A DNA stretch of 50,609 nt. Source: Clostridia bacterium (lineage in GTDB: Bacteria > Bacillota > Clostridia > Christensenellales > Borkfalkiaceae). The stretch spans positions 1-50,609 of the forward strand of contig JAGAIW010000063.1 in the NCBI GenBank assembly GCA_017626305.1, written 5' to 3'. The notes below the pieces were generated by a model. The model searched no databases. It saw only the letters and a list, made by a program, of their open reading frames with translations, and was not told the DNA's origin. Below are positions 37,178 to 50,435 of this stretch, piece by piece; within the stretch, counting starts at the first letter, position 1, and every line of letters starts with the position of its first letter. The position numbers and the translations under genes were made by a program.

Positions 37178-37654
37178 TTACGGCTCGTTCCAAAGATTGA
37201 CGATTTGTTTATCCTTGCTCTTTTTTGCGTACTTATACGCCTTATACGCGCCGCTGTCCTTTCTCTCTTCCGCATAGAAAATCACGACGGCGCTATTATC
37301 AATCATGGCGCAGTTTCGATAATAAATCGCCTTATACCACCCCGTAAAAGACGGCGTAAGATAGATAACGTCTTCGTAGTCTTCGTTTTTAAAATAACGA
37401 TACTTCTTTCTTAGATAATATTCGCTCGTTACGCAAAATACCCGTTGCAATTCCCACGCGGGGTTCTCTTGTCGTAGCTTGGTGACAATTTGATAACAAA
37501 GCCTGTCAAACTCTCCAAACCCGCCAAAGAAAAAAACACGACAACCCTGCTTTATCGCGCGCATAATCGCGGCGGTGGTTGTCGCGTATAATTTTTCGGT
37601 AAGCTGTATTTCTCTATGCCCAAAACAAGAACAAATTTTTTTCGTATCTTCCAT
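37178..37654 (-). CDS. YpsA-like SLOG/DUF1273 family protein
   Basis: 158 aa from ATG 37654; the in-frame upstream start lies inside the structured leader. ICSCFGHREI at the N-terminus, FFFGGFGEFDRLCYQIVTKL, and IDNSAVVIFYAEERKDSGAYKAYKYAKK are the SLOG Rossmann-like nucleotide-binding signatures. SLOG proteins bind or cleave nucleotide-derived signals; YpsA is linked to cell-division control and stress. The only candidate ribosome site is the G-run in the leader hairpin, so translation is probably gated by that structure. Confidence 0.85.
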   Translation of the reverse strand: MEDTKKICSCFGHREIQLTEKLYATTTAAIMRAIKQGCRVFFFGGFGEFDRLCYQIVTKLRQENPAWELQRVFCVTSEYYLRKKYRYFKNEDYEDVIYLTPSFTGWYKAIYYRNCAMIDNSAVVIFYAEERKDSGAYKAYKYAKKSKDKQIVNLWNEP

Positions 37655-37661
37655 AAAAATA

Positions 37662-37846
37662 GTGCCACCCCTTGCGAGATGGCACGTAGAATACCTCTCG
37701 CGTAGTCGCCAAACTATTTCACACAATCCACTTTGCAGCCAAATTGTCGCGATACCGTATTTCTACCGAAATATAGTATGGCTACAAAAAGGGATACTAT
37801 CCCCTTTCGTGGATTGTTATTAAGTTTGTGAAATGTTTGGCAAGTA
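37662..37846 (-). ncRNA. structured leader RNA, copy 1 (candidate new family)
   Basis: The transcript begins just after a strong promoter and runs to the SLOG start. A long terminal stem pairs TTGCCAAAC-ATTTCACA with TGTGAAAT-A-GTTTGGCGA; further stems are CAATCCAC/GTGGATTG, TTTGTAGCCA/TGGCTGCAAA, GGGATA/TATCCC and ATTTC-GGTA-GAAAT. At the 3' end, GTGCCATCTC/GGGGTGGCAC closes a GCAA loop and is followed by U-rich sequence. GCGAGA upstream (37696-37701) can pair with TCTCGC inside that hairpin (37674-37679), giving a pseudoknot or antiterminator. A second copy with compensatory changes is at 50158-50320. Confidence 0.7.
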
Positions 37847-37847
37847 T

Positions 37848-37876
37848 ATTATAGCACTTATTTTTTATTTTTTCAA
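37848..37876 (-). promoter_or_regulatory. promoter of structured leader copy 1
   Basis: TTGAAA-N17-TATAAT on the minus strand; the transcript would start at the base of the long stem. Confidence 0.85.
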
Positions 37877-38132: not shown

Positions 38133-38209
38133 TAAAAGTAATGCAACGTTACATAAACCCATCTATTTTTCCTGCATAATTTACTTGTAATCGTCCTATT
38201 TTCTTCCAT

Positions 38210-38485
38210 GGGATTCTTCGAGCGTTGCTCTCAGAATGACGGTTGGGACGAGCGTTGCAATTCTTCCGCTTACGCGTCAGAATGACGGTTGCCCCTAACG
38301 TCATACTGAACGTAGTGAAGTATCCCATAATACGTAGTCCGTACCGATTAAACGTCATGTTGAACGTAGTGAAGTATCCCAAATTACGCAAGTCCGTATT
38401 TTCTTCCATGGGATTCTTCGAGCGTTGCTCTCAGAATGACGGGTTGGAAAAAGTGTCAGAAATCTTCCCTACGGTCAAAGTGACG
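38210..38485. repeat. hairpin-repeat array upstream of XRE gene
   Basis: Six units: 38210-38241 (minus, inner GAGC/GCTC), 38258-38287 (minus, GTAA loop), 38299-38326 and 38353-38380 (plus, ACGTAGT type, 54-bp period), 38410-38441 (minus, GAGC/GCTC) and a divergent one at 38461-38485 (minus, inner CC-GTA-GG). The unit at 38353 has ATGTT opposite AGTAT, still pairable through two G-T pairs. Spacers such as ACGTAGTCCGTACCGATTAAA recur. No gene is encoded. Confidence 0.85.
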
Positions 38486-38582
38486 AGTAAACCAAAGCAG
38501 CAAAAAAACACTTCTTTTAGGAATTTGTCCACCTAAATCTAGTTATACGAATTTTGTCGTTTATTCATCTCCTTTTATTATC

Positions 38583-38605
38583 ATATACCAAATTTTTTGG
38601 TATAT
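38583..38605. promoter_or_regulatory. operator palindrome O4
   Basis: ATATACCAA-N5-TTGGTATAT, perfect symmetry, 38 bp before the XRE start. Confidence 0.75.
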
Positions 38606-38610
38606 CAAGT

Positions 38611-38635
38611 ATATTACCAATATTTTTGGTAATAT
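38611..38635. promoter_or_regulatory. operator palindrome O5
   Basis: ATATTACCAA-N5-TTGGTAATAT, perfect symmetry, ending seven bases before the XRE ATG. Occupancy would block initiation. Confidence 0.8.
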
Positions 38636-38642
38636 TTTTTAT

Positions 38643-38843
38643 ATGAAAGAGATTAGGTTTCCTGAAAATTTACGTAGCTTACGGAAAAGCGCGGATATGA
38701 CGCAACGGCATTTAGCTGCCGTTTTGGACGTCGACCAGCGCACGATAAGCGCATGGGAAAAAGGCGTTTGCGAACCGAGCTTTGCAATGCTTTCTAAGCT
38801 GTGCGAAATTTTTGGGGAAACGTTTGACGATATCCTTACTTAA
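38643..38843 (+). CDS. small XRE-family regulator
   Basis: 66 aa consisting of one helix-turn-helix domain: LRSLRKSADMTQRHLAAVLD, then VDQRTISAWEKGVCEPSF and LSKLCEIFGETFDDIL. There is no ribosome site before the ATG; O5 ends seven bases upstream, so the message may be leaderless. It is flanked on both sides by hairpin-repeat arrays. Probably an autorepressor using the ACCAA-N5-TTGGT sites; other targets would be the O1-O3 region. Confidence 0.88.
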   Translation: MKEIRFPENLRSLRKSADMTQRHLAAVLDVDQRTISAWEKGVCEPSFAMLSKLCEIFGETFDDILT

Positions 38844-39196
38844 CGTCATACAAAGCAGAACGAAGTGTAGTGAAGTATCCCATAATACGTAGTCCGTACC
38901 GATTAAACGTCATACTGAACGTAGTGAAGTATCCCATAATACGGAGTCCGTATTCTCTTCCATGGGATTCTTCGAGCGTTGCTCTCAGAATGACGTTTGC
39001 CCTAACGTCATACTGAACGTAGTGAAGTATCCCAAATTACGTAGTCCGCACCGATTAAACGTCATACTGAACGTAGTGAAGCATCCCATAATACGAAGTC
39101 CGCGTTCTCTTCCATGGGATTCTTCGAGCGTTGCTCTCAGAATGACGGTTGGGGGGACGAGCGTTGCGATTCTTCCGCTTACGCGTCAGAATGACG
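38844..39196. repeat. hairpin-repeat array downstream of XRE gene
   Basis: Seven units, beginning directly after the XRE stop: 38844-38881 (plus, expanded inner part), 38908-38935 (plus), 38964-38995 (minus, GAGC/GCTC), 39006-39033 and 39060-39087 (plus, 54-bp period), 39116-39147 (minus) and 39167-39196 (minus, GTAA loop). The order plus-plus-minus repeats, and the last two match the first two of the upstream array. I see nothing else between here and the terminator at 39243. Confidence 0.85.
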
Positions 39197-39283: not shown

Positions 39284-39748
39284 TTATACGTTGAGTGTAG
39301 CGTCAATACGCGTTTCTGACGCGCCGTAGCTGCCCCATTGAAAGTCAAATTGCATGACGACGTTTGCTACGCTTTCCACGGTAAAGGTATATTCTTCGTC
39401 GGGCGCAAGCTGTGGACTGTAATGCTTATTTTCGCCTACTGTGAACACGGCAAACCCCGTTTGCACCGTACCGCTTGCCTGTAAGGTAACGGCGTATTTT
39501 TCGCCTGCTGTCAAGACGTAGCTGCACGCGCCGCTCTCCTGCACCGAGCCGTCCACGGGAGTCACCGTTTCGTCACCAAGAGTAAGCTGTATTTGTATAG
39601 CGTAATTGCCGCTTGCCACTTGCGACGGTTTCCCGTCTACGCTCCCGTTAAACCATGCGTACGAACCAAGGCTTAACGTGCACGTACATAAAGCAATAAC
39701 GAGTATACCGTTGATAATGACTAATTTTATCGGATTATCACGTTTCAC
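39284..39748 (-). CDS. TasA/camelysin-like exported protein 2
   Basis: 154 aa from GTG 39748 (AAGGAG seven bases before). A single N-terminal membrane segment ends GSYAWFNGSVDG, the SipW-type cleavage region with the aromatic after the small residues. The remainder is beta-rich (YAIQIQLTLGDETVTP). Last gene of the sipW operon; likely a secreted fibre or matrix subunit. Confidence 0.78.
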   Translation of the reverse strand: MKRDNPIKLVIINGILVIALCTCTLSLGSYAWFNGSVDGKPSQVASGNYAIQIQLTLGDETVTPVDGSVQESGACSYVLTAGEKYAVTLQASGTVQTGFAVFTVGENKHYSPQLAPDEEYTFTVESVANVVMQFDFQWGSYGASETRIDATLNV

Positions 39749-39759
39749 TATTTACTCCT

Positions 39760-40356
39760 TTACGCCGCGTTGCCTTGCGTTGCGAATACGGTTACGTCAA
39801 TGACGCACTTCTTATTTTGGTAAACGTTACCCGATTCGGGCAACATACGTACCGCAATCGCATAATAATCCGTTTCTCCGACTTCCATCATAACGTAATC
39901 GTTCCCCGAAACGGTATTCCCGCCGTTTTCTAATAATACGGGAGCGGCTTTTTGCGAAATACTATCCCACGTTTCCGTACTCGTATCGTAATATTCGCTG
40001 TTAAATACGCTCACTTCCAAAGCGCCGACCAAATCTCCCACCAAAACGTTGAGTTGGAAAATATACCCGATACGGATATTACTGTTATTCTCAATTTTTA
40101 AGAATACCACGCGGGTTTGGTTGGGTTCCCACGGCTGATTGCCGAACACGTCGCCTTTTTCGTCCTTAATGCTAACGTATTCCCCGTTTTCGTTTGCTTG
40201 TAACAAATCCACGTCCATGCTACCTGCGTTTACACGCGCCACGATAGGACCTGTGGAATCGGTAAATAACGCCATCGTCGTCGTGGTTAATAACGAAAGA
40301 CATAAAAGAATGGTCATGAAAGCAAAGATTATGTTTAATTTTAACTTTGAAAACAC
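39760..40356 (-). CDS. TasA/camelysin-like exported protein 1
   Basis: 198 aa from GTG 40356. N-terminal segment IIFAFMTILLCLSLLTTTTMALFTDSTG is a SipW-type signal; VARVNAGSMDVDLLQ and IENNSNIRIGYIFQLNV match the TasA/CalY fold. TasA proteins assemble into amyloid-like biofilm fibres after SipW processing. The adjacent sipW gene supports this role. Confidence 0.85.
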   Translation of the reverse strand: MFSKLKLNIIFAFMTILLCLSLLTTTTMALFTDSTGPIVARVNAGSMDVDLLQANENGEYVSIKDEKGDVFGNQPWEPNQTRVVFLKIENNSNIRIGYIFQLNVLVGDLVGALEVSVFNSEYYDTSTETWDSISQKAAPVLLENGGNTVSGNDYVMMEVGETDYYAIAVRMLPESGNVYQNKKCVIDVTVFATQGNAA

Positions 40357-40402
40357 GTCTATACTCTCCTTTCCTTTATTCTTTCGCGTCTAGCCACCGC
40401 TT

Positions 40403-41185
40403 TTACTTCGTTACTTGCCCCGAGCCGTCTTCTGCGGTTTGTTCCGTTTCAGAGCCGTTTTGCTTTTGTTCGTCTAACGCTTTTTTCAAAGCGCGCATTT
40501 CTTCCAGCATGCGCTGTGTTTCTTCCCGTTCCTTTTCCAAGCGTTCCCGCTCGATACGGTACTCGTCCGTTTTTTCTCCGCGATAGGCTTTGAAATATTT
40601 CCAACAATTCACGCCTTGATAGGCAATCAGCGCGCCGAAAGGAAGTAGGATACAAACGATATACCCGGGCACGGTTTTTAGAAAACTGAACAGCCAACCA
40701 ACCCAAGGGATTCTACCGACGTACTGTCCTTTAATCCACTCGTAGGTAACCACCGCGTCGTCGTTTTCGCCCGTCGTCGTTCCGTAGGTGATAAACCCGG
40801 GCTCGCCGTCGTCCGTCGTCGTCTTTTCACGGATTTTATGCGTAATCGTTTCGCCAAGGCTCTTCGGGCTTTGTGAAACGAACGTGATAATATCCCCTTC
40901 TTTTAGCGTTTTCGGGTCAACTTTTTTGACAAAAATCAAATCCCCTGCGGCAAAATCCGTCTTTTGCATGGAATCGGAAAGCACGACGTACATTTTTACC
41001 CCGAACAGTTCCTTATCGTCTTTATTGAACATAATCGTGGAAAAGACGGTGAAGATAACGACGAGAACGGAAAGCACCAACAGCGCGCGGGACGCGATTA
41101 AGCCAACGATATTCCAAGCCGAACGCTTTTTCCCTTCGGTTTGAGAAGTATCCACACTTTCCACCGCAGGCGTTTGCTCTTCCAT
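40403..41185 (-). CDS. sipW: SipW-type signal peptidase I with coiled-coil tail
   Basis: 260 aa. After one membrane helix, VVLSDSMQKTDFAAGDLIFV contains the nucleophile Ser72; the general base is His116 in GETITHKIRE, not Lys, which marks the S26B (SipW/archaeal/ER) class. A second membrane helix near residues 180-200 precedes a charged coiled coil (YRIERERLEKEREETQRMLE). It should cleave the two TasA-like proteins encoded downstream. First gene of the operon; AGGAG site and strong promoter. Confidence 0.9.
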   Translation of the reverse strand: MEEQTPAVESVDTSQTEGKKRSAWNIVGLIASRALLVLSVLVVIFTVFSTIMFNKDDKELFGVKMYVVLSDSMQKTDFAAGDLIFVKKVDPKTLKEGDIITFVSQSPKSLGETITHKIREKTTTDDGEPGFITYGTTTGENDDAVVTYEWIKGQYVGRIPWVGWLFSFLKTVPGYIVCILLPFGALIAYQGVNCWKYFKAYRGEKTDEYRIERERLEKEREETQRMLEEMRALKKALDEQKQNGSETEQTAEDGSGQVTK

Positions 41186-48021: not shown

Positions 48022-49077
48022 ATGGTACGCATTAAAACCGCACAGGAAATGGGACTTAGCGAACACGTACAGCCGTTTGAAGACGGACTGCGCACAGGCC
48101 CGCAATCGGGTAACTACGAATGGTGGTATTTTGATTCCAAATACCCCGACGGGAGCAGTCTTGTTGTCATCTTTTTCAGCAAGCCCGTCACGTCTATGGC
48201 AAACAAATTTCAGCCGTACGTATCCTTTGATTTTCTTTCCCCCACACACGAGCATATCCACACCGAAATGCGCGCGGACGAATATTCCATGTCCAAAGAG
48301 CATTGCGACGTGCAAATCGGCGAGTCGTATATCAAGGGGGATTTAAAACATTACGATATCCATTTTAAAAACAATATCGTCGAAGCGCATATTACTTTGG
48401 ACGCGAGCGTGCCTTCGTGGCGGCCGTATTCAGGGCATTTGTATTTCAATGAAAAGGAGTACTTCGCTTGGCTGCCGTCCGTTCCCGAAGGGATTGTCAA
48501 AACAGAAATTAAAACGGCAAAGGAAAGCTTTACGCTTAGCGGTACGGGCTATCACGACCACAACTGGGGCAATAAGCTGATGATTTTCCTTATGAATGAC
48601 TGGTACTGGGGCAGAGCCAAAATCGGCGATTACGTAGTGGTATCTTCGTACATTTACGCCAACAAAAAATGTAAGCACGCTCCCACGCCCATATTCATGC
48701 TTGCTAAAAACGGCAAAATTATCGCGGACGACGCTTATCGCTGTTTGACCTATCGCGAAGAAAACCCCATTAAAGACCCGTACACCAAACGCTACGTTGC
48801 CAACACTTTGGTGTATGAATATCAAGACGAAACCAACGGCACACATTACCGCATTACCTATCATAAAGGTACGGAAGAAGTCGAACGCAAAATCATGCGC
48901 GAAATTATAAGCAAACCACTTGCCGTGGTTATGTATCTTTTGGGTTTTCGCGGCTCGTATCACCGCATGAGCGGTACGGCTTGCATAGAAAAGCTAGTAA
49001 ACGGCGAAGTCGTCGAAAAAGTAGAATCCCCTGCCATGTGGGAACAAATGTGTTTCGGCAAAGACAGAATTCAATAA
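48022..49077 (+). CDS. AttH/CrtC-like lipocalin-fold protein
   Basis: 351 aa from ATG 48022 (GGGAG before it). YEWWYFDSKYPDGSS and SGTGYHDHNWGNK are the paired signatures of the AttH/CrtC family (double lipocalin domain; carotenoid 1,2-hydratase relatives). In Firmicutes the function is unknown; no carotenoid genes are nearby. No signal peptide. Single-gene unit with its own promoter and terminator. Confidence 0.83.
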   Translation: MVRIKTAQEMGLSEHVQPFEDGLRTGPQSGNYEWWYFDSKYPDGSSLVVIFFSKPVTSMANKFQPYVSFDFLSPTHEHIHTEMRADEYSMSKEHCDVQIGESYIKGDLKHYDIHFKNNIVEAHITLDASVPSWRPYSGHLYFNEKEYFAWLPSVPEGIVKTEIKTAKESFTLSGTGYHDHNWGNKLMIFLMNDWYWGRAKIGDYVVVSSYIYANKKCKHAPTPIFMLAKNGKIIADDAYRCLTYREENPIKDPYTKRYVANTLVYEYQDETNGTHYRITYHKGTEEVERKIMREIISKPLAVVMYLLGFRGSYHRMSGTACIEKLVNGEVVEKVESPAMWEQMCFGKDRIQ

Positions 49078-49083
49078 TCAACA

Positions 49084-49111
49084 AACGGCTTGCCGAGCAG
49101 GGCAAGCCGTT
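49084..49111 (+). terminator. terminator, copy 1 of a repeated hairpin
   Basis: AACGGCTTGCC/GGCAAGCCGTT with loop GAGCAG. The same stem recurs at 49847 and 50403. Confidence 0.85.
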
Positions 49112-49141
49112 CGTTATATATGCAAAATCTTCTTAAAGGGA

Positions 49142-49348
49142 CTAATAGTCTACCCTGCCAAGCAAATAATCGACGGAAACGTCAAAAAATTCAGCTATTT
49201 TCACCAAGTTGGGGGCTGTGGGTTCACTTCTATCCGTTTCCCAGTAACAAACCACCGCATAGCTCACCTGCAACCCTTTTGCAAGAGCCGCTTGGCTTAG
49301 CCCCTTTTCTTTGCGTAATTCTTTTAAGCGTTCAGCAAATATCTTCAT
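49142..49348 (-). CDS. XRE-family regulator
   Basis: 68 aa from ATG 49348. MKIFAERLKELRKEKGLSQA, then ALAKGLQVSYAVVCYWETDRSEPT, then LVKIAEFFDVSVDYLLGR: a single Cro/CI helix-turn-helix domain. The -10 box TATAAT ends six bases before the ATG, so the message is leaderless. Divergent from a zinc-ribbon membrane protein with a shared operator region. Confidence 0.9.
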   Translation of the reverse strand: MKIFAERLKELRKEKGLSQAALAKGLQVSYAVVCYWETDRSEPTAPNLVKIAEFFDVSVDYLLGRVDY

Positions 49349-49354
49349 GCTTAT

Positions 49355-49412
49355 ATTATACTCAATAAATTTAGTAAAAATACTTGACACTCAATTTATT
49401 GAGTAGTATAAT
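49355..49412. promoter_or_regulatory. divergent promoters with two operator palindromes
   Basis: Plus: TTGACA (49384) -N17- TATAAT (49407); its spacer contains the perfect ACTCAAT-TT-ATTGAGT (49389-49404). Minus: -10 TATAAT at 49355-49360, overlapping the imperfect ACTCAAT-AA-ATTTAGT (49360-49375). The XRE protein probably represses both. Confidence 0.8.
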
Positions 49413-49433
49413 ATAATAAAAAAGGTTCGCGTT

Positions 49434-49838
49434 ATGATTTATTTTTATTATTTAATAGTATTATCCGTATTACCAACTCTATTCGCGGGTGCAACCGCGT
49501 CTTGGAAAGGTCATAACGTCGTCGGTTGGATTATAGCCGCCTTATTTTTAAGTTGGATTGCAGTAATTATTTTAGCCGTCTTACCAGCTGAATCGTCCCC
49601 ATATTATTCTTCTGAACCCTTTTATACGCAACAAAAAAGAGAAAATTCAAAAAATCGTTGTTCTAATTGCGGCGCGGAAGTAAAAAACGGTATATGCACG
49701 TTTTGTAAAAAAGGAAACACTTTAACTTTATCCCCCAAACCCAACCCGTCCGTTAAAAAAGTAACCCCTTTCCGTTGTAAAGAATGTGGCGAAACCATCA
49801 ACACAAGTATTTGTCCCTACTGTGGAACAAAATATTAA
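49434..49838 (+). CDS. membrane protein with two zinc ribbons
   Basis: 134 aa. Two N-terminal membrane helices, a Ser/Pro-rich linker, then zinc ribbons CSNCGAEVKNGICTFC and CKECGETINTSICPYC. Weak ribosome site (AAGG). Controlled by the divergent XRE gene; function unknown. Confidence 0.8.
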   Translation: MIYFYYLIVLSVLPTLFAGATASWKGHNVVGWIIAALFLSWIAVIILAVLPAESSPYYSSEPFYTQQKRENSKNRCSNCGAEVKNGICTFCKKGNTLTLSPKPNPSVKKVTPFRCKECGETINTSICPYCGTKY

Positions 49839-49846
49839 CAAAGATA

Positions 49847-49874
49847 AACGGCTTGCCAAACAGGGCAAGCCGTT
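49847..49874 (+). terminator. terminator, copy 2 of the repeated hairpin
   Basis: AACGGCTTGCC/GGCAAGCCGTT, loop AAACA plus G; T-rich tail. Flank ACAAAGATAA shared with copy 3. Confidence 0.85.
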
Positions 49875-49911
49875 TTCTATTAAAAAGAGCTATTGTGTGA
49901 GCCGTTTTACA

Positions 49912-50132
49912 TTATGCCGCACTAGAAGTTTGAAAAAAGTCTTTCAAACAAATATCCAGCACGGCAAATAACAAAAATCGTATGTAAACCCACGTTTTTA
50001 TATTTGCACGAAAGAATATTTTCCACCGTTTGCAAAGGAAGTTGCGTTTTTTTGTGCCAAATCTTCTTTCGTCATTTCTCTTTCTTGCATGAGTTCTTGG
50101 ATACGCGACGCGATACTTTGTTGTAATTTCAT
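49912..50132 (-). pseudogene. XRE-family regulator with two compensating frameshifts
   Basis: Begins at ATG 50132 behind a perfect AGGAGG: MKLQQSIASRIQELMQER, EMTKEDLAQK, then the frame breaks in a run of seven A (about 50058-50064). One base fewer restores TQLPLQTVENILSCKYKN, VGLHTIFVICRA. A second shift, one missing base, is needed to read LDICLKDFFQTSSAA and the stop at 49912. The restored protein would be about 73 aa, the normal size of this small XRE family. Indel errors or real decay. Lies behind structured leader copy 2. Confidence 0.75.
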
Positions 50133-50157
50133 ATAAACCTCCTAATAAAAAAAATAA

Positions 50158-50320
50158 GTGCCGCTCTTGCGAGACGGCACCGTAGGGCGCGCTTTCTCGC
50201 TAAGTCGCTAAACCATCTTACACATCATGCTTTTTGGGGCACATTGTAATGCGATATCGGCGCGTCTCTACCAAGTAGAAACCGCCCCAAAAAATTGATG
50301 TAGTTGATGATTTAGCGTAT
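50158..50320 (-). ncRNA. structured leader RNA, copy 2
   Basis: Terminal stem CGCTAAATCATC/GATGGTTTAGCG, then ACATCA/TGATGT, TTTTTGGGGC/GCCCCAAAAA and hairpin TCTAC-TTG-GTAGA. The motif TATCGC...ACAAT and the AACT after the first stem are shared with copy 1. The 3' hairpin GTGCCG-CTC/GAG-CGGCAC closes a GCAA loop and runs into T8, a proper terminator. AGCGAGA (50195-50200 region) can pair with TCTCGC inside it (50169-50174). The XRE pseudogene follows with its own ribosome site. Confidence 0.7.
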
Positions 50321-50322
50321 TT

Positions 50323-50351
50323 ATTGTAACAAATCTATTTTGATTTGTCAA
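50323..50351 (-). promoter_or_regulatory. promoter of structured leader copy 2
   Basis: TTGACA-N17-TACAAT on the minus strand; transcript starts at the long stem, as in copy 1. Confidence 0.85.
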
Positions 50352-50402
50352 GGTTTTTTGAAAACAATCTAAATAAAGCCGCCGCAATTTTCGACAAAGA
50401 TA

Positions 50403-50435
50403 AACGGCTTGCCGAGCAGGGCAAGCCGTTTTTTT
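50403..50435. terminator. terminator, copy 3 of the repeated hairpin
   Basis: AACGGCTTGCC/GGCAAGCCGTT, loop GAGCAG, T7 on the plus side. Confidence 0.85.

Follow-up and report, generated by a model that had tools for sequence, protein, structure and literature searches.

The window, a 50,609-nt contig of a Clostridia bacterium of the family Borkfalkiaceae, carries two copies of a structured RNA that is close to certainly a real RNA family outside the Rfam release searched. Comparative sequence analysis showed the family itself, the promoter and terminator at its ends, its predicted pairings and the mutual exclusion of some of these pairings. We think it likely that these RNAs form a new family of cis-acting transcription-attenuation leaders, an orphan riboswitch candidate that would switch by a relay of five strands. 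The family is new for the Rfam release searched and common in one group of Clostridia, and its putative switch mechanism can be read from covariation.

Two leaders in the window and their relatives

A sequence-only reading of the window had described two leaders on the minus strand, each starting directly behind a strong promoter, and the sequence at both places agrees with that description. Both promoters are sigma-70-like, with 11 of 12 consensus matches each. The promoter of copy A (TTGAAA, 17 nt, TGCTATAAT (TATAAT)) is at 37848–37876 and its leader RNA at 37655–37843; the promoter of copy B (TTGACA, 17 nt, TACAAT) is at 50323–50351 and its leader RNA at 50151–50318. All parts of the two leaders, promoters included, are on the minus strand. 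The common plan is present in both: a terminal stem, AACT, an inner stem, a small hairpin, TATCGC, GCGAGA, a hairpin with a GCAA loop and a U-tract. The differences between the stems that had been quoted as paired in both copies are real in the sequence. In the predicted folds, the stem P1 of copy A is formed by 37827–37841 and 37708–37723, its inner stem by 37809–37816 and 37724–37731, and P1 of copy B by 50306–50317 and 50206–50217; P1 covaries in the family. A terminator pattern scan found 10 pairs in the terminator of copy A (37685–37662) and missed that of copy B, which is present with a bulge in the predicted fold.

Two parts of the earlier description had to be amended. Both copies exist, but the bacterium's own genome holds six; and the TATCGC motif is present, but it belongs to a putative switching strand that pairs with GCGAGA. 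The main element had been overlooked. It is a long-range helix between the 3′ side of the apical hairpin and the stretch preceding the terminator, with 14 predicted pairs in copy A and in copy B and a median of 18 over 112 copies.

The first search for relatives used a DNA pattern of the common 3′ end in 151 genomes of the bacterium's own taxonomic family. Five of the 17 places found are copies of the RNA, namely A and B and three that belong to genomes of other genera; two of the other twelve were read and are not this RNA, and the rest were judged to be chance from the matched letters. A small model of the 3′ end (R1) had matches in 47 of the 151 genomes at E ≤ 1. When 25 of the best R1 places were read, the whole RNA was found in nearly all of them, and one (L094, in genome G120) was without the 5′ half. 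A full-length model (R2) was built from 25 seed sequences of 15 genomes of the same taxonomic family; copies A and B, both among the seeds, match it with 88.5 and 95.8 bits, respectively. With R2, the RNA was found in 69 of the 151 genomes at E ≤ 0.1 and in 61 at E ≤ 1e-3. At E ≤ 0.1, 13 of the 18 genera of the taxonomic family were represented, with up to six copies per genome. Matches outside the seed had E-values down to 8.3e-17, where E-values of such home-made models are to be read as rough.

Beyond the taxonomic family, R2 matched 14 of 291 genomes of the class at E ≤ 0.1, with seven genomes outside the family at E ≤ 1e-3, and only the bacterium's own genome among 398 genomes of the phylum at E ≤ 0.01; both sets were drawn evenly, and the stricter filters used there lose weak matches. 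From the counts for family, class and phylum, we conclude that the RNA is concentrated in one group with few outliers. Outliers L100, L104, L106, L107 and L109 have 14–20 predicted pairs in the long helix, a helix that is absent from the model; outlier L108 has nine, and outlier L105 was mis-cut. A pattern for one subgroup matched 26 stretches of a named collection, all of them metagenome-assembled Clostridia or Clostridiales, and the source, where stated, was ruminant gut. One strict DNA pattern had 0 matches in viral contigs.

The analyses below use a set of 133 copies, which omits hits of E > 1e-3 as well as G119:C12 and leaves the cut G114:C35 unused, and an alignment of 112 copies, 25 of which are R2 seeds or overlap a seed. 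The counts include L094, despite its truncation, and L105, although the pairing scripts segmented it wrongly.

The RNA had been held to belong to no known class, and no Rfam family was matched by copy A, copy B or 40 further loci. At gathering thresholds, the whole window gave three tRNAs only and neither leader was matched. At E ≤ 10, copies A and B had 7 hits and 1 hit, respectively, to unrelated families with scores far below gathering, and no model of the T-box, 6S, c-di-GMP or other known riboswitch classes was hit by either copy. Of the further loci, 20 were searched at gathering thresholds and 20 at E ≤ 0.5. An HDV-like ribozyme, considered only from the crossing topology of P1 and the long-range helix, was rejected: the RNA starts at its promoter, without a leader to cleave. 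The RNA was not found described in a literature search whose reach excluded most subscription papers, preprints and supplements.

Covariation and mutually exclusive helices

Compensatory change in homologues had been named as the mark of a real structure, and it was found: 27 of the 28 modelled pairs changed on both sides among the 112 copies. In the alignment of these copies by R2, P1, the second stem, the apical hairpin P4 and the terminator were paired in 91.8% of cells. The covariation score, in an alignment that is fitted to the structure, was 0.483, compared with 0.200 in shuffles (0 of 500 reached it) and 0.07–0.09 when the pairing was slid. A MAFFT alignment of 25 sequences, made without structure, gave a result of the same sign: both sides varied at 21 of its 36 pairs, compared with 13.7 in shuffles, none of 500 of which reached 21. 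Paired cells in the MAFFT alignment amounted to 94.7% for P1, 90.0% for the GUAG/CUAC part of the long-range helix, 98.5% for the terminator and 92.0% for the four core pairs of the antiterminator. For P4 the value was only 77.1% and for the stem below P4 72.6%, which counts against the proposed relay. Strongly conserved unpaired positions were few, below what we would expect for a metabolite aptamer.

The predicted folds of both leaders were far better than those of dinucleotide shuffles (z of −8.4 for copy A and −5.6 for copy B; 0 of 200 shuffles as good for either copy). These values, the fixed orientation behind promoters, the covariation, which includes many G-U pairs, and the E-values of matches outside the seed all speak against chance or DNA-level inverted repeats without RNA function. 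The leaders and their flanks are AT-rich, as such repeats in AT-rich DNA would be; we give this explanation almost no credence, and the covariation already contradicts it.

Five strands would take part in the switch. Strand 1 is the 5′ side of P4, a hairpin that covaries in the family, and lies at 37768–37779 in copy A and, from the fold, at 50275–50283 in copy B. Strand 2 (X) is the loop of P4 and its 3′ side as far as UCGC. By pairing predictions, it lies at 37748–37767 in copy A, where it comprises the GGTAG loop, the 3′ side of P4 and TATCGC, and at 50251–50272 in copy B. Strand 3 (Y) follows P1 and consists of GCGAGA and a linker as far as CUAC (37686–37702 in copy A; 50182–50200 in copy B, by pairing predictions); its partner would be either strand 2 or strand 4. 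Strand 4 is the 5′ arm of the terminator with the start of the loop (37674–37685, GTGCCATCTCGC, in copy A; 50169–50180 in copy B). Strand 5 is the 3′ arm of the terminator, which runs into the U-tract (37655–37671 with the arm GGGGTGGCAC in copy A; 50147–50166, from the fold, in copy B). The pairing of strand 2 with strand 3 (the 2:3 helix, which is the long-range helix) was first seen by hand and was confirmed by scripts.

We compared the mean duplex energy of strands with their own partners to that with the strands of other copies (2000 permutations), and calculated z against shuffles; the copies are related, and the permutations retain this relatedness only in part. For every helix tested (2:3, 1:2, 3:4, P1 and terminator), 0 of 2000 permutations reached the own mean. 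Own and swapped energies were −18.5 and −12.4 kcal/mol for 2:3 (z < −2 in 105 of 111 copies), −10.1 and −5.7 kcal/mol for 1:2 (82 of 109), −11.8 and −7.2 kcal/mol for 3:4 (89 of 111), −14.1 and −6.8 kcal/mol for P1 (105 of 112) and −11.6 and −9.2 kcal/mol for the terminator (103 of 111). When the 2:3 helix was split, both parts were supported (GGURG part, −9.4 own and −5.9 swapped; UCGC part, −5.8 and −4.8). Helices 2:3 and 3:4 are absent from the search model, yet in the weaker-scoring half of the copies z was below −2 in 53 of 56 and 45 of 56, respectively. Nine control pairs of segments had differences between own and swapped of only −0.40 to +0.36. Two of the nine were still in the tail (12 and 86 of 2000 permutations), which indicates the size of the background. 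The largest control difference (12 of 2000) was that of the P1 5′ strand with the terminator 5′ arm, −5.16 own and −4.76 swapped, far below the predicted helices, and the P1 5′ strand was rejected as a general antiterminator.

Single copies were less clear-cut than the means. The own partner ranked within the top 5% of partners in 56 of 111 copies for 2:3, 55 of 109 for 1:2, 54 of 111 for 3:4, 83 of 112 for P1 and 47 of 111 for the terminator. That only about half of the copies beat 95% of foreign partners counts against the relay, as does strand 1, which fell short of z < −2 in 27 of 109 copies.

That GCGAGA competes with the terminator, part of the antiterminator or switch layout first proposed for this structured leader, agrees with the pairing predictions. 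In 107 of 112 copies, the second partner of strand 3 shares 3 nt or more with the 5′ arm of the terminator, and in 95 of 112 it extends into the 3′ arm. Helix 3:4 and the full terminator are therefore mutually exclusive. Together with the compensatory changes, this overlap supports a covarying leader of switch layout. In addition, the predictions of 2:3 and 3:4 for 110 of 112 copies have three or more paired bases of strand 3 in common (median 10). The base triples vary widely among copies, for example GCGA with UCGC and UCGC, UACGAUA with UAUCGUG and UAUCGUA, and AAGAUG with CGUCUU and CGUCUU. We regard the three-way covariation of strand 3, as it appears in these alignments, as the strongest sign of a switch.

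In the off state of the proposed relay, the long 2:3 helix would form, crossing P1 as a pseudoknot. Strand 4 would be free to pair with strand 5 in the terminator, and RNA polymerase would stop ahead of the gene. In the on state, the apical hairpin (1:2) would form and strand 3 would be released to pair with strand 4 as the antiterminator, so that the gene (SLOG for copy A) would be transcribed. The signal, whether a metabolite, a protein or another RNA, would presumably stabilise the apical hairpin and its conserved GGURG loop. We infer that both folds form in cells. The summed mean duplex energies, which exclude loop and pseudoknot terms, are −18.5 (2:3) and −17.5 (terminator) for off, compared with −10.1 (1:2) and −13.7 (3:4) for on; the values come from the comparison of own and swapped partners and from the analysis of the terminator overlap, which cut the segments by alignment columns in different ways, so that their energies differ. 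Because the sums favour 2:3 and the terminator, off would be the default and the signal would have to favour the apical hairpin. They favour off strongly, so that the on fold needs a stabiliser, a point that counts against the relay. No purine-rich stretch of copy A is closer to the ATG than AAGGGG, which is part of the loop and 3′ arm of the terminator, so that antitermination might also make it accessible to ribosomes.

Promoters, downstream genes and arrays

A −10 box was present within about 20 nt upstream of 117 of 132 copies, compared with 18% of random places; the box lies outside the model. In 87 of the 132 copies it ends exactly 4 nt before the start of the RNA model, and a −35-like box was also present in 97 copies.

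Using simple ORF rules, we found a protein gene on the same strand behind 99 of 129 copies, within 150 nt (300 nt for SLOG), and many of these genes start 10–40 nt past the terminator. Sorted by what lies downstream, the 133 copies comprise 31 with a SLOG ORF (same strand, start within 300 nt), 36 with a lipoprotein-like ORF, 11 with a signal- or membrane-like ORF, 21 with another same-strand ORF of at least 100 residues, 4 with a small ORF only, 14 with a longer opposite ORF, 12 with none and 4 with too little flank; the lipoprotein and membrane labels come from simple patterns, and every ORF was taken at its longest extent. Copies whose downstream gene is opposite (14), absent (12) or a small ORF only (4), 30 of 129 in all, lack a clear gene on the same strand and count against a purely cis-acting leader. 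An alternative count (longest ORF of at least 80 residues within 150 nt) gave 89 copies with a gene on the same strand, 18 with one on the opposite strand and 22 with none, of 129.

A SLOG gene had been reported behind copy A, and the association recurs in relatives, as the 31 of 133 copies show; in the flanks that were searched, 38 of the 133 copies have a SLOG ORF, which in 37 is downstream on the same strand. The SLOG-type ORF of copy A (37178–37654, minus strand) has its ATG right behind the U-tract. Its protein had no Pfam or NCBIfam hit at E ≤ 0.1, and no solved structure was matched by sequence. It seeded a profile that gathers YpsA-like ORFs of other loci, and two relatives in that profile, both behind the same RNA, have 34.7 and 28.6 bits for PF06908 (cut-off 27.7). 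In G252, a genome of another taxonomic family, the RNA is directly before a SLOG ORF that starts 4 nt after the RNA and is 62% identical to that of the window. This pair suggests that leader and gene can travel together. Ten downstream proteins were compared with Pfam. Above the cut-off were YpsA SLOG PF06908 (two proteins), BspA LRR (two), Big_2 with Listeria-Bacteroides repeats, TIR_2 and GmrSD_N; weak matches below the cut-off were Rho_N-like, UDG and recombinase zinc-ribbon.

The link to XRE genes, proposed from copy B, is less well founded. Behind copy B, AGGAGG and an ATG were read directly at 50118–50143 (minus strand). The ORF that begins there resembles an XRE protein in pieces, but its reading frame is broken downstream; a few other copies are near XRE-like genes. 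Three loci of the bacterium's genome or genus (L080, L081 and L097) have, between the RNA and SLOG, a gene on the other strand that looks XRE-like by eye. The ORF downstream of copy B (MKLQQSIASRIQELMQEREMTKEDLAQK...; 50000–50132, minus strand), also judged XRE-like by eye, loses its frame where seven A follow one another, and a continuation that resembles HTH is found in another frame, as in a pseudogene, slippage or an assembly error.

Some features of other loci were also recorded. The RNA of L136, L156 and L095 (1822–2003) precedes a small protein of one look, CK.Y....LR.YG...RGAP.KN, which in L136 has a weak Rho_N match below the cut-off. There are tRNA genes in the fetched flanks of L096, L079, L087, L086, L002, L091, L204 and L150. 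In the subgroup of L080, L081, L084, L088, L091 and L093, the body of the leader contains an AGGAG that is followed by no clear ORF.

Several loci contain arrays: four copies in L157, three each in L095, L195 and L201, and two in L084, where arrays other than L095 and L084 are known by spacing. In L095 and L084, every copy is flanked by a promoter and a terminator of its own, with no gene between copies; the stem sequences differ yet stay paired. Such gene-less array copies should make only short RNAs. A pure cis-acting leader does not explain the arrays and gene-less copies. They would be accounted for by a stand-alone family of small RNAs consisting of promoter, knotted body and terminator, with genes read from elsewhere or by chance read-through, and with the 2:3 helix and the 3′-end knot as parts of one stable fold instead of alternatives. 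Such RNAs would fit arrays of 2–4 neighbouring copies and an opposite gene or none at 26 of 129 copies. They would not fit the same-strand gene at 99 of 129 copies, 31 of these of one family (SLOG), or the partner of strand 3 within the terminator 5′ arm in 107 of 112 copies, and the two covarying partners of strand 3 would be needless for a single fold. We therefore consider this explanation quite unlikely.

Pairing between copies was also calculated. Strand 2 with strand 3 of another copy in the same genome had a mean of −13.8 kcal/mol, compared with −18.3 kcal/mol for the own pair and −12.2 kcal/mol between genomes. Of 226 within-genome cross pairs, 60 were stronger than the own pair or at most 2 kcal/mol weaker.

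Known attenuators and the signal

Like riboswitches that act by transcription attenuation, this RNA is a 5′ leader with a terminator before the gene and a mutually exclusive antiterminator, as found by comparative sequence analysis, and several copies per genome occur before different genes. It is unlike known riboswitches in having no Rfam class and few conserved unpaired bases, and in that its anti-antiterminator helix, 2:3, crosses P1. Attenuators of the trp type are a relay of 1:2, 2:3 and 3:4, in which each strand pairs with either neighbour. The chain of strands and the pairing with either neighbour are alike here, whereas the five strands and the pseudoknot across P1 are not; no conserved leader peptide was noticed when the copies were read by eye.

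A further likeness is to the rplJL leader of Bacillus subtilis (L10(L12)4 attenuation), for which PMC4538822 describes protein-driven anti-antiterminator, antiterminator and terminator structures. The same three structures are predicted here, and they are mutually exclusive at the level of sequence. A difference is that rplJL is under ribosomal-protein control and has ribosomal genes behind the leader; homology between the two was compared through Rfam. The RNA described here is present in up to six copies per genome (E ≤ 0.1), before SLOG, lipoprotein and other genes.

The downstream genes are diverse, and thus no ligand is clearly suggested; a nucleotide ligand, the idea of the sequence-only reading, is less well founded. 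That the RNA precedes SLOG, TIR and surface-lipoprotein genes suggests a regulon under one common signal. It is possible, if somewhat doubtful, that the attenuator is set with no small-molecule ligand, either by a regulatory protein (for example, SLOG or another product that autoregulates) or by the small RNA of an orphan copy, binding at the apical hairpin or at strand 2 or 3. This would be a sub-case, as to the signal, of the five-strand relay that we prefer. The weak conservation of unpaired bases is consistent with it, and the rplJL leader is a protein-driven precedent (PMC4538822). The diversity of the downstream genes means that simple SLOG autoregulation fits only part of the family. 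For an orphan RNA, the 60 of 226 cross pairs of near own strength or better are favourable, although cross pairing within a genome is on average far weaker than own pairing (−13.8 compared with −18.3 kcal/mol).

Genes of the surface-lipoprotein type can be regulated by c-di-GMP, and many targets of this RNA would be surface lipoproteins. Lipoprotein-like genes, by the pattern rule, are behind 36 of 133 copies, and two lipoprotein-like examples matched either BspA LRR or Big_2 together with Listeria-Bacteroides repeats, as a new kind of c-di-GMP (surface-lifestyle) riboswitch would lead one to expect. GGDEF was matched in only 3 of 20 RNA-bearing genomes (2 of 13 of good quality), whereas 8 of 14 control genomes were positive in the same search. 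There was no GGDEF match in the bacterium's own genome (95% complete) or in 17 of the 20 RNA-bearing genomes, which makes c-di-GMP unlikely as the ligand, and we consider such a riboswitch very improbable.

Returning to the five-strand relay, a broader reading is speculative and on the whole improbable. The RNA could be a nearly sequence-free switch module, kept mainly by covariation and reused up to six times per genome, whose shared signal would join SLOG, TIR, XRE and surface lipoprotein genes in one regulon, in mostly uncultured gut Clostridia. Gene-less array copies would then act in trans, by strand exchange, or as decoys.

Other features of the window were observed near the leaders. At 39284–41185 (minus strand), a likely signal peptidase (260 aa) adjoins two secreted-looking proteins, a set that we take to resemble the SipW/TasA type; a Pfam search with one of the three proteins gave no hit. 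Around the XRE genes and copy B (49075–50432), there are three alike terminator-like hairpins, AACGGCTTGCC..GGCAAGCCGTT, which are 39-nt repeats with 74–95% identity to the reference. Just upstream of copy A (38197–39154), there are four copies of a 52-nt repeat with CTCAGAATGACG, 90–96% alike to the reference, which are part of larger 133-nt repeats and look like a dispersed repeat.
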